Source: Terriglobia bacterium
Lineage (GTDB): Bacteria; Acidobacteriota; UBA6911
Reading direction: 5' to 3'
Length of the DNA: 64,000 bases
NCBI GenBank assembly: GCA_020072565.1
Contig: JAIQGI010000007.1
Location: 62,001 to 126,000, forward strand
Positions 29,691-38,212 of the stretch are shown one piece after another; positions within the stretch are counted from its first letter, which is position 1, and each line of letters opens with the position of its first letter. The position numbers were made by a program, and so were the translations under genes. Under the pieces are notes generated by a model. The model was not told the origin of the DNA and searched no databases. It saw only the letters and a list, made by a program, of their open reading frames with translations.

Positions 29691-29963
29691 AAAAGCTCAA
29701 TGCAGAGGGCGCGGAGGACGCAGAGAAGATTCGAGGACTACCTATTGAGGATCAGACATTACGGTGACGCCATTCCAAGGAGAGATGTGTCGCCCCTTCG
29801 GGGCTCCTTCTTCTCCTGCTCTCAACCCCGGGCTCACGCCCGGGGCTACTCTCTGGCACCCCTTCGGGGCTGGGAATTTTGTTTCCGTCACGATATCTTT
29901 TGATTATCAATAAGTGAAGCCAACTGTCCTCCGCGTCCTCCGCGTCCTCTGCGTTGGGCTTTG
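29691..29963. repeat. Intergenic GCAGAGG-family repeat with enlarged loop (copy g)
   Basis: Left arm 29691-29727 (AAAAGCTCAATGCAGAGGGC, with 9-base periodicity) and right arm 29925-29963 (TCCTCCGCGTCCTCTGCGTT, ending GGGCTTTGCC). Their loop is about 200 bases instead of the usual 20-30 and holds a separate palindromic block at 29793-29871. It spans the whole glnA-glnD gap. Confidence 0.65.
29793..29871. repeat. REP-like palindromic block nested in copy g
   Basis: Two copies of CCCCTTCGGGGCT (29793-29805 and 29859-29871) flank a perfect 8-bp hairpin CCCCGGGC-TCAC-GCCCGGGG (29826-29845). The three stem-loops in a row resemble bacterial REP/BIME-type repeats. No transposase gene is present. Confidence 0.6.
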
Positions 29964-36340: not shown

Positions 36341-36419
36341 AATCTCAACGCAGAGGGCGCAGAGAAGTTTTGGGTGCTTGAATTCTGCGTCCCCTGCGCG
36401 CTCTGCTTTGAGCTTTTGG
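36340..36419. repeat. Intergenic GCAGAGG-family repeat (copy l)
   Basis: Left arm GAATCTCAACGCAGAGGGCG and right arm CGCGCTCTGCTTTGAGCTTT, with a loop of about 25 bases. It begins at the leuD stop codon and ends at the ribosome-binding site (GGGAGGA) of the MFS gene. Confidence 0.7.
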
Positions 36420-37759
36420 GAGGACACGTTATCGCACGATCCCGCTCGTTCGCCCTGTGGCTCCTGTTCGGCATCAACCTCCTCAATTTCTTCGACCGCC
36501 AGATCCTGGCTGCCGTAACCGAACCGTTGCGCCTGGAATGGTCCCTTACCGACACGCAGCTGGGCTGGCTGGTGACCGCTTTCACGCTCCTTTACGCTGC
36601 GGTGGGACTGCCCCTGGGCCGTCTGGCAGACGTCTGGAGGCGCAACCTTATCCTGACGGCCGGACTTACGCTTTGGAGCGGGCTCACCTTCCTGTCGGGC
36701 TTTTGCCGAAGCTTCTGGCCCTTGTTTGCCGCCCGCCTTGGGGTTGGCGTAGGAGAGGCGTCCTGCGCGCCCGCGGCAAGTTCGCTGATCGGCGATCTGT
36801 TCCGGCCGCAGGAGCGGGCCCGTGCCATGTCGGTCTTTATGCTGGGGCTGCCCGTCGGCGTCGCACTCAGCTACCTCGTGGGCGGGGCGGTCGCGCAACA
36901 CTACGGCTGGCGTGCGGCTTTTTACCTTGCCGGCATTCCGGGTTTGCTGCTGGCAGCTGCCGCGTTGTTCCTGGCCGAGCCCCCGCGAGGCCGGTCCGAG
37001 GCCACCGAGGTAGGCTCTGAGCGTCGTCCCGGTTCCCCAATCAAGCTCGTCCTCGGCATTCCCACGATGCGCTGGATCATAGCCTCCGGCCTGCTGCACA
37101 ACTTCATCATGTACGCCTTGACGTTTTTTCTGCCCTCGTTCCTGGTGCGCTATCACCGGACGACGGTGCAAATGGCGGGACTGGTTTCGGCTCTCGTTGT
37201 GGGGACGGTGGGAGCGCTGGGGATGCTTGTGGGGGGATGGTTGGGGGATGCGGCGAAAAACAGGCGCCAGAACGGCCGCATGCTGGTCGCGGGAACGGCG
37301 GTCCTGCTGGCAGTTCCCGCTGGCTTCTTCGCACTGCTGGCGCCTGCAGGAGCCCTCCCTGCCTTTATCGTCCTTCAAGGCCTCGCTGCGTTTCTGATGT
37401 ACACCTACTACGCGACCGTCTACGCCACGATCCACGACATCGTCGAGCCGACGCTGCGCGGCCGCGCCATGGCGATTTATTTCTTCGCCATGTACATGCT
37501 CGGCGCCTCGATGGGCCCGGTAGCGACTGGCCGGCTGAGCGATTTTTTCGCCCGCCGCGTAGCCGGCGCAACGCCCGTCACCGAGCAGTTCCGAGCGCTG
37601 GGTCTGCACCAAGCCATGTACCTCGTCCCCTTGTTGACCCTGCTCCTCGCGGCCGTCCTGTTCCTGGGGGCCCGGACTGTCCGTAAGGATATGGACCGTT
37701 TACAGGGCTGGATGAAAAGGCTCAACGCAGAGGGCGCGGAGGGCGCGGAGAAGAACTGA
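36416..37759 (+). CDS. Major facilitator superfamily transporter
   Basis: About 445 residues with 12 predicted membrane helices. The A-motif is in GLPLGRLADVWRRNLIL after helix 2. N-terminal LLFGINLLNFFDRQILAAV resembles the Spns/hexuronate-type branch. Start is unclear: no ATG or GTG lies between the repeat and helix 1. GGGAGGA (36418-36424) is ideally placed for an ATC at 36431, while a TTG at 36416 is the nearest usual start codon. The C-terminus RLNAEGAEGAEKN is encoded by the left arm of the next repeat. Substrate unknown. Confidence 0.85.
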   Translation: MGGHVIARSRSFALWLLFGINLLNFFDRQILAAVTEPLRLEWSLTDTQLGWLVTAFTLLYAAVGLPLGRLADVWRRNLILTAGLTLWSGLTFLSGFCRSFWPLFAARLGVGVGEASCAPAASSLIGDLFRPQERARAMSVFMLGLPVGVALSYLVGGAVAQHYGWRAAFYLAGIPGLLLAAAALFLAEPPRGRSEATEVGSERRPGSPIKLVLGIPTMRWIIASGLLHNFIMYALTFFLPSFLVRYHRTTVQMAGLVSALVVGTVGALGMLVGGWLGDAAKNRRQNGRMLVAGTAVLLAVPAGFFALLAPAGALPAFIVLQGLAAFLMYTYYATVYATIHDIVEPTLRGRAMAIYFFAMYMLGASMGPVATGRLSDFFARRVAGATPVTEQFRALGLHQAMYLVPLLTLLLAAVLFLGARTVRKDMDRLQGWMKRLNAEGAEGAEKN

Positions 37760-38212
37760 AAGATATTGGGGAGCTTTGAAACATTAATAGCTGATGGAGT
37801 TGAATAGCATAACCGGCGATATTATTGGGGCCGCGATCGAGGTTCATCGAGCGCTCGGACCGGGCCTCCTTGAGTCGGCTTACGTAGCCTGTCTCGCATG
37901 CGCGCTTGCAGAGCGCCAATTGAAGGTGGAGCAGCAGAAGCCGTTGGCCTTGGTCTACCGCGATATCAAGATGGATTGTGGTTACCGCCTCGATTTGCTG
38001 GTTGAAAACCGGGTGATTGTGGAGGTCAAGTCGGTGGAGTACGTCCTCCCCGTCCACAAGGCTCAACTCTTATCCTATCTGCGGCTTGCCGACTGCAGAG
38101 TTGGTCTCCTGATCAACTTCAACGTGGAAGTTCTAAAGGACGGAATCTATCGTATCGTAAACAACTTCTAGACCCCTTCCGCGCCCTCGGCGCCCTCTGC
38201 GTTGAGCTTTTC
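37715..38212. repeat. GCAGAGG-family repeat carrying a gene in its loop (copy m)
   Basis: Left arm 37715-37753 (AAAAGGCTCAACGCAGAGGG and three 9-base units). Right arm 38173-38212 (CCTTCCGCGCCCTCGGCGCC, then CTCTGCGTTGAGCTTTTC). The arms match the empty copies elsewhere, but here the loop is about 420 bases and contains a complete GxxExxY gene. The left arm overlaps the end of the MFS gene and the right arm abuts the UDP-glucose dehydrogenase stop. Confidence 0.75.
37794..38171 (+). CDS. GxxExxY family protein (PD-(D/E)XK nuclease-like)
   Basis: 125 residues, the family length. The naming motif is Gly24-Leu-Leu-Glu27-Ser-Ala-Tyr30 in ALGPGLLESAYVACL. The later residues Asp67, Glu77-Val-Lys79 (RLDLLV, IVEVKS) and Gln91-xxx-Tyr95 give the layout of a PD-(D/E)XK nuclease. 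The family is conserved but has no established function. The gene lies exactly between the two arms of repeat copy m, which elsewhere lack it. Function is therefore likely tied to the repeat, by inference. Confidence 0.9.
   Translation: MELNSITGDIIGAAIEVHRALGPGLLESAYVACLACALAERQLKVEQQKPLALVYRDIKMDCGYRLDLLVENRVIVEVKSVEYVLPVHKAQLLSYLRLADCRVGLLINFNVEVLKDGIYRIVNNF

Follow-up and report, generated by a model that had tools for sequence, protein, structure and literature searches.

Acido-Lenti-1 as a probable transposon-end DNA unit inverted around genes of Y1 transposases with the motif YIxxQxxHH

The DNA analyzed here, referred to as the window, is a stretch of 64,000 nucleotides from a Terriglobia bacterium (assembly GCA_020072565.1, contig JAIQGI010000007.1), and its subject is a block of nested repeats at window positions 29691–29963 that contains a copy of Acido-Lenti-1 (RF01687). 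The block spans part of a 287-bp spacer separating two open reading frames (ORFs), which we take to be glnA and glnD. The outer inverted repeat has arms of 34 nt each that are 88% complementary, and a second, separate repeat family is nested inside this outer copy (Table 1). The two occurrences of CCCCTTCGGGGCT around a hairpin of CCCCGGGC and GCCCGGGG, which an earlier note had read in the loop from the letters of the sequence, are found as hairpins A2 and A on either side of hairpin B. On the minus strand, hairpin B reads CCCCGGGC-GTGA-GCCCGGGG, with a GNRA-type loop and with GTAG immediately 5' of the stem. Folded as single-stranded DNA, the block reached −66.4 kcal/mol, as compared to a mean of −39.1 for 200 shuffled sequences (z = −7.4; none of the 200 as low).

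Table 1. Positions in the window of the features that make up the block.
Feature	Position	Strand	Basis
Left arm of outer inverted repeat (CGCAGAGGRCGCRGAG family)	29692..29725	+	self-complementarity; arm matches across genome
Right arm of outer inverted repeat	29929..29962	−	self-complementarity; arm matches across genome
Inner dispersed element, about 170 bp, in outer loop	29743..29912	+	genome copies with about 80–87% identity without arms; 9-copy alignment
Left terminal inverted repeat of inner element (TATTGAGGATCAG..GGTGAC), imperfect	29743..29768	+	read by eye
Right terminal inverted repeat of inner element	29887..29912	−	read by eye
Hairpin A2 (CCCCTTCGGGGCT), third hairpin, beyond Rfam model	29793..29805	+	
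Acido-Lenti-1 (RF01687) match: hairpin B, 13-nt linker, hairpin A	29826..29871	+	Rfam 47.4 bits; model R2 66.3 bits
Hairpin B, read on plus strand as CCCCGGGC-TCAC-GCCCGGGG	29826..29845	−	
Hairpin A (CCCCTTCGGGGCT)	29859..29871	+	

The Acido-Lenti-1 segment passes the gathering score of the RF01687 covariance model, which is 37 bits. The second score in Table 1 refers to R2, a model built from 36 units, the window copy being one of them. In the window, R2 gave this one full-length match and one partial match, which is hairpin A2 of the same element; in a background of 137,880 bases (the window and 18 glnA loci), no match at E ≤ 0.1 was found except for the window site, which is repeated in locus L215. 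Acido-Lenti-1, which sometimes occurs near group II introns, is dispersed in the genome, with at least 89 RF01687 matches at E ≤ 0.01 and 40 above the gathering score, which is a lower bound as 150 of 1801 candidates were scored. At E ≤ 1e-5, the family was detected in 24 of 40 genomes, namely this genome and 23 of 39 relatives, and in none of the 14 control genomes; one control, Haloferax volcanii, has a match at E ≤ 0.01 that is below the gathering cut-off. Among neighboring copies at most 300 bp apart in the genome (24 pairs), 17 pairs have the order '−+', which is also the orientation that flanks a transposase gene, while none are '+−', four are '++' and three are '−−'. The gaps within the '−+' pairs are too short to hold such a gene, and 11 of the 17 pairs have the same 118-bp gap, indicating one family and not independent events. 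Tandem arrays of Acido-Lenti-1 were also observed, at L010 (C88) and at L031 (C105:12125-12333).

The genome contains eight matches to Y1 transposases, three of which (C130, C88 and C67) carry the motif YIxxQxxHH. In the remaining five genes, three have YVERNP or YIMENP, and a Y motif was not found in two. Using R2, units were identified beside all three motif-bearing genes and beside none of the five others, where the Rfam model did not detect any either. A broader set of 37 Y1 loci consists of these eight and the best locus of each of 29 relatives, out of 107 matches. The motif Y---Q--HH is present together with HUH at 14 of these loci, and R2 matches were found at 12 of the 14, as compared to 2 of the 23 loci without YIxxQxxHH (Fisher p = 4e-6). 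Six of the 12 R2-positive loci contribute units to the alignment of R2; leaving them out, the counts were 6 of 8 and 2 of 23 (p = 0.0009). With the Rfam model, the corresponding counts were 8 of 14 and 2 of 23 at E ≤ 0.1 (p = 0.002), and 5 of 14 and 1 of 23 at the gathering score (p = 0.02). The motif-less loci with hairpins are L050, with an IS200-type gene, and L074, with a truncated gene in which the motif region is missing, and the motif-bearing loci without an R2 match are L055 and L058. In eight aligned proteins the HUH histidines, the Q and the Y are invariant, and DHxH and WQ are present in all eight. The nearest solved structures by sequence include the ISHp608 transposase, and the NCBIfam IS200 model matched all six proteins scanned, four of them above the cut-off.

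An alignment of the eight YIxxQxxHH proteins was used to fetch 80 named loci, which are the best 80 of at least 585 candidates, and none of the units in R2 were taken from these loci. The flank counts are based on the 176 of 204 R2 rows with E ≤ 0.01, the 28 weaker rows having been dropped. A unit was present within 300 bp of the gene at 65 of the 80 loci: as a minus copy upstream at 51, as a plus copy downstream at 41, and as both at 33, with a median distance between unit and gene of 63 bp on each side. The density of units was 2.88 per kb near the gene versus 0.18 per kb farther out, which is a 16-fold difference. The nearest unit upstream was on the minus strand at 47 loci and on the plus strand at 11, whereas the nearest unit downstream was on the plus strand at 40 loci and on the minus strand at 6. 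The Rfam model was applied to 18 of the 80 loci; at E ≤ 0.1, RF01687 was identified at 12 of them, and 5 of the 18 exceeded the gathering score. At the Lentisphaerae locus L176 it was found on both sides, with 36.1 and 30.2 bits, both below 37. The two units flanking the gene of L109 have similar scores.

A count of hairpins in these loci without a model (stem of at least 7, within 200 nt of the gene) was in agreement with the R2 result. They occurred upstream at 56 of 80 loci (2.6 in shuffled sequences), downstream at 52 of 76 (2.9), on both sides, regardless of orientation, at 44 of 76, and in 9 of 141 far segments. According to the phylum labels in the record titles, which mostly refer to metagenome-assembled genomes, such hairpins were present on at least one side in Bacteroidota (18/23), Verrucomicrobiota (21/22), Planctomycetota (12/17), Acidobacteriota (4/5) and Deltaproteobacteria (3/3), and at the single locus each of Ignavibacteria, Kiritimatiellota, Chloroflexi, Armatimonadetes, Hydrogenedentes, Lentisphaerae and one unassigned record. 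They were absent from the two loci of Sumerlaeota and the one of Methylococcaceae.

The unit has the order A2, about 22 nt, B, about 12 nt and A, and in the flanking units A2 faces the gene and A faces outward. A hairpin A2, separated from B by about 22 nt and located opposite A, was present in 51 of 61 transposase-flanking units (shuffles 3.9) and in 27 of 38 dispersed copies (shuffles 2.7), whereas on the other side, beyond A, a hairpin was present in 10 of the 61 and 4 of the 38; the subsets were picked by hand, and the flanking rows are mostly those nearest the gene in the expected orientation. In the three-hairpin alignment A3, 3-nt and 4-nt loops are out of register with each other, and RNAalifold for this reason recovered only part of hairpin B; the evidence for the third hairpin is therefore the hairpin count. 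Compensatory changes were observed in 10 of 12 predicted pairs in the 36-sequence alignment, with G-U pairs in 1 of 432 cells (5 of 407 in a 37-sequence alignment). On the strand opposite to that of Rfam, the loop of hairpin B is of the GNRA type in 25 of 36 sequences and the loop of hairpin A is GAA in 21 of 36. The foot 5' of the hairpin is NNAG in 27 of 31 dispersed and 58 of 64 flanking copies, and GTAG in the window copy; these subsets, 31 dispersed and 65 flanking rows, were also picked by hand, the flanking rows again mostly by proximity to the gene and expected orientation, and one of the 65 lacks a perfect stem. Hairpin B is 0.90 identical between the left and right side of one locus and 0.55 identical between loci (26 loci; 0 of 10000 permutations).

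Thus, we conclude that Acido-Lenti-1 is probably two thirds of a three-hairpin transposon-end DNA unit, which is inverted around genes of Y1/HUH transposases that carry YIxxQxxHH, the motif of 'subclass 1.2'. The association with the genes, the prevailing inverted orientation, the specificity for the motif, the cognate left and right hairpins and the dispersal of the copies are all seen in the sequences. It is likely, if somewhat less so, that Acido-Lenti-1 and the YIxxQxxHH transposases together constitute a distinct class of single-strand mobile elements with three-hairpin inverted ends that is spread over multiple phyla, and which may be called a triple-hairpin REPtron, after the systems of repetitive extragenic palindromic (REP) sequences. 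In such an element, the transposase would recognize the hairpins when the DNA is single-stranded and would use its HUH site and its tyrosine to cut and join near them, whereby the gene-bearing element would be moved or copied. Copies without a gene, both the inverted pairs and single units such as that of the window, would be mobilized in trans, and the dispersed copies would then, in analogy to REP and REPIN systems, be products that are not autonomous. The unit would not primarily be an RNA, although a transcribed role may coexist.

In the text of Quentin et al. 2018 (PMC6006769), subclass 1.2 of TnpA_Y1 is described by the Y motif Y---Q--HH and as generally lacking the typical terminal structures of IS200. 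The proteins analyzed here share this Y motif and HUH, and are assigned to the subclass by motif, but they differ in having hairpin ends and in occurring in many further phyla. The likeness to REP, REPtron and REPIN systems consists of dispersed palindromes that flank a Y1 gene on either side in inverted orientation, gene-less inverted pairs, and left and right hairpins that resemble each other at each gene. The two features by which a REPtron is recognized are inverted palindromes on both sides (at 33 of the 80 loci) and dispersed copies of the same kind (the 89 or more matches in the genome). The differences are another kind of transposase, three hairpins per unit, and a foot that is mostly NNAG instead of GT[AG]G. 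The points in common with IS200/IS605 insertion sequences are the nearest structures, with ISHp608 among them, and the matches to the NCBIfam IS200 model; the ends of IS608, however, are hairpins on one strand and not inverted units.

The TIRtrons described by Di Nocera 2013 (PMC3733652) are also Y1 genes (TIRYT), some of them from acidobacteria, with inverted sequences on their flanks of which further genomic copies can exist; in the text of that study, the inverted repeats are partly variants with GGGGWSAS in common and otherwise mutually unrelated. By this description they are set apart from our units, with which they may nevertheless overlap. For Acido-Lenti-1 itself, hairpin B, the linker and hairpin A are the same as in Weinberg 2010 (PMC2864571), above the gathering score, and the units at transposase genes include loci titled Acidobacteria or Lentisphaerae, the two phyla in Table 1 of that study. 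What differs is that they are here part of a three-hairpin unit tied to a transposase, and that the loci, according to the record titles, belong to about a dozen groups. No published link between Acido-Lenti-1 and a transposase was found in open-licence full text, supplements not being covered. If the interpretation is correct, it provides a substrate for a transposase subclass that has been described as lacking typical end structures, reassigns an Rfam 'RNA' that genome pipelines can annotate as an sRNA (small RNA) gene to a DNA transposon-end sequence, extends the REP-like systems by one that has three hairpins and another foot, and bears on the origin of REP systems from IS200/IS605 elements.

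As for the surroundings of the unit in the window, a search of the genome with the block returned 49 rows, including the block itself and its own arms, and the block is thus not unique; uniqueness was the finding by which the earlier note would have been refuted. Apart from these, the best rows are confined to the loop (about positions 50–223 of the query), at 80–87% identity and without arms, which shows that loop and arms are two families. With up to 3 mismatches allowed, 79 matches to the outer arms were found in the genome, whereas a reversed control pattern has none. We paired 15 outer arm pairs by hand from these matches; 13 of them span 63–156 nt, and the window copy measures 84 nt without the inner element. 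Of the two possibilities offered in the earlier note, the insertion of one repeat family into the other is therefore supported, the inner element being dispersed without arms and the remaining outer copy being of ordinary size. We scanned 18 loci with a whole or partial inner element for outer arms (25-nt arm, up to 6 mismatches), which were found at the window locus only; at C34, a half-arm-like string below the threshold of the scan adjoins the inner element.

Imperfect terminal inverted repeats of 26–27 nt are common to the copies of the inner element, and a similar terminal-repeat pattern is present at 12 places in the genome and at none in the control. The 121-nt consensus of the element was found at 22 places in the genome and at 9 in 5 of the 39 relatives, mostly as the hairpin part. 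No autonomous partner was recognized among the 12 pattern places, the surroundings of which were read in part. A duplication of TA at the ends is not claimed, because the ends are inconsistent across seven copies. The window copy is one unit inside a vehicle of about 170 bp with terminal inverted repeats, and the vehicle is inside the loop, about 30 nt in length, of an unrelated palindrome. The element of about 170 bp has itself been copied around the genome, and it may have been moved either by the Y1 enzyme or by a DDE enzyme that uses its terminal repeats. Some inner-element copies outside of outer palindromes have a further inverted-repeat element in the apex of hairpin B, so that repeats nested in one another are frequent in this genome.

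Several observations weigh against a transposon-end unit. With the Rfam model alone, units were detected at only two of the three motif-bearing transposases in the genome, that of C67 being identified by R2 only, and the tandem array directly downstream of the C88 transposase points in the opposite direction. The set of 80 loci was obtained with eight seed proteins, and five of these were already known to have flanking units. Moreover, 17 of the 104 nearest units are oriented contrary to expectation, no R2 match was found within 300 bp at 15 of the 80 loci, and none at E ≤ 0.01 anywhere in 12 of them, several of which have other hairpins. In some genomes many RF01687 copies but no Y1 gene were detected, as in G024 with 90 copies, although the assemblies are fragmented. 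Directly 5' of the hairpin, a minority of copies (7 of 31 dispersed, 7 of 64 flanking) have the canonical REP foot GT[AG]G, and the units were for this reason not filed as canonical REPs. The loop of hairpin A is often TTCG on the Rfam strand, and this loop is stable as RNA. Finally, no empty insertion site was found in the glnA–glnD spacers of the relatives G004, G007, G011 and G005. These spacers measure about 105–115 bp in the former three and about 380 bp in G005; none of them contains the block, and they provide no proof of an insertion.

We consider it unlikely that Acido-Lenti-1 is a genuine structured non-coding RNA that is located near, or hitch-hikes with, the transposases. The Rfam entry is typed as an sRNA gene, Table 1 of Weinberg 2010 lists Acido-Lenti-1 with 'RNA? 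y, cis-reg n', and the compensatory changes and the TTCG loops are in line with these assignments. However, the concentration of units, mostly inverted, at both ends of a single type of transposase gene, the excess of '−+' over '+−' pairs in the genome and the third hairpin beyond the RNA model all argue against an RNA; the scarcity of G-U pairs is suggestive only, and given the GNRA-type and GAA loops on the other strand, loop type does not favor the strand of Rfam. The hairpins were presented in the earlier note as REP-like, with a REP-associated tyrosine transposase (RAYT) to be searched for. They do accompany a Y1 transposase, but its class is not that of the classical RAYT and the GT[AG]G foot is mostly missing. 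It is accordingly highly improbable that the units are ordinary GTAG-type REPs of a classical RAYT (class 2), in spite of the GTAG 5' of hairpin B in the window copy and the five further Y1 genes in the genome, three of them with YVERNP or YIMENP. R2 matches at E ≤ 0.01 were found at none of these five loci and at 2 of the 23 without QxxHH overall, and the NCBIfam model REP_Tyr_transpos matched one of six proteins scanned, with 36 bits versus a cut-off of 80. We rejected this candidate based on the specificity for the Y motif with QxxHH, not NP, and on the foot.

For the window element as such, it is a possible but doubtful explanation that it is merely a miniature inverted-repeat transposable element (MITE), moved by a DDE transposase via its terminal inverted repeats, with the inner hairpins as passengers. 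The terminal repeats shared by the copies speak for this, yet it covers only the vehicle of about 170 bp in this genome: there are 12 terminal-repeat places versus at least 89 RF01687 matches, RF01687 copies are also present in 23 of 39 relatives, and the TA at the ends varies between copies. As regards the hairpin unit itself, a MITE of this kind is compatible with the unit being a transposon end. The other possibility in the earlier note, that loops of the outer family are capture sites, did not hold up and is very unlikely. Two of the 15 outer arm pairs have cargo in long loops, one the inner element and the other an unrelated GxxExxY gene, but outer arms were found at only 1 of the 18 inner-element loci and around 1 of the 3 GxxExxY genes in the genome. 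This reading was rejected on the counts of inner-element loci with arms and of long loops.

Additional observations concern the neighborhood of these repeats. The outer palindrome with the GxxExxY gene is located at 37724–38203 of the window, with a complete GxxExxY/PDDEXK_3 ORF at 37794–38171 in its long loop, and the C-terminal tail (RLNAEGAEGAEKN) of the transporter-like ORF at 36374–37759 is an arm of the outer repeat. In the glnA–glnD spacer of G004 (L217), a different palindromic repeat of the CTTCGCGCCTTAGCGTC type was observed, so that the same slot is occupied by unrelated repeats in relatives. Loci L247 (C130) and L248 (C67) contain two closely similar copies of the YIxxQxxHH transposase, that of C67 being cut at its start, and each adjoins half an inner element, which suggests that the gene-bearing element also inserts into or beside inner-element repeats. 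At L246 (C70:18365-20085), an insert of about 1.6 kb interrupts an inner element within its hairpin A2. The further inverted-repeat element, with the ends TTAAGCGCTAA/TTAGCGCTTAA, is 220 bp long in C16 and 450 bp in C48 (L244:227-446; L264-L282; L242:252-701), and at 14 of its 19 places it lies directly against the apex of hairpin B of an Acido-Lenti-1 unit. The copy in C19 is outside any recognized unit. A 12-bp duplication, GGGC-N4-GCCC, is present at the element in C19, C88, C60, C32, C105, C85 and C48, and with one mismatch in C16; C3 has GGGCGTCCGCCGC. The element looks like a MITE with a preference for GGGN6CCC targets, which are presumably similar to IS231-type targets.
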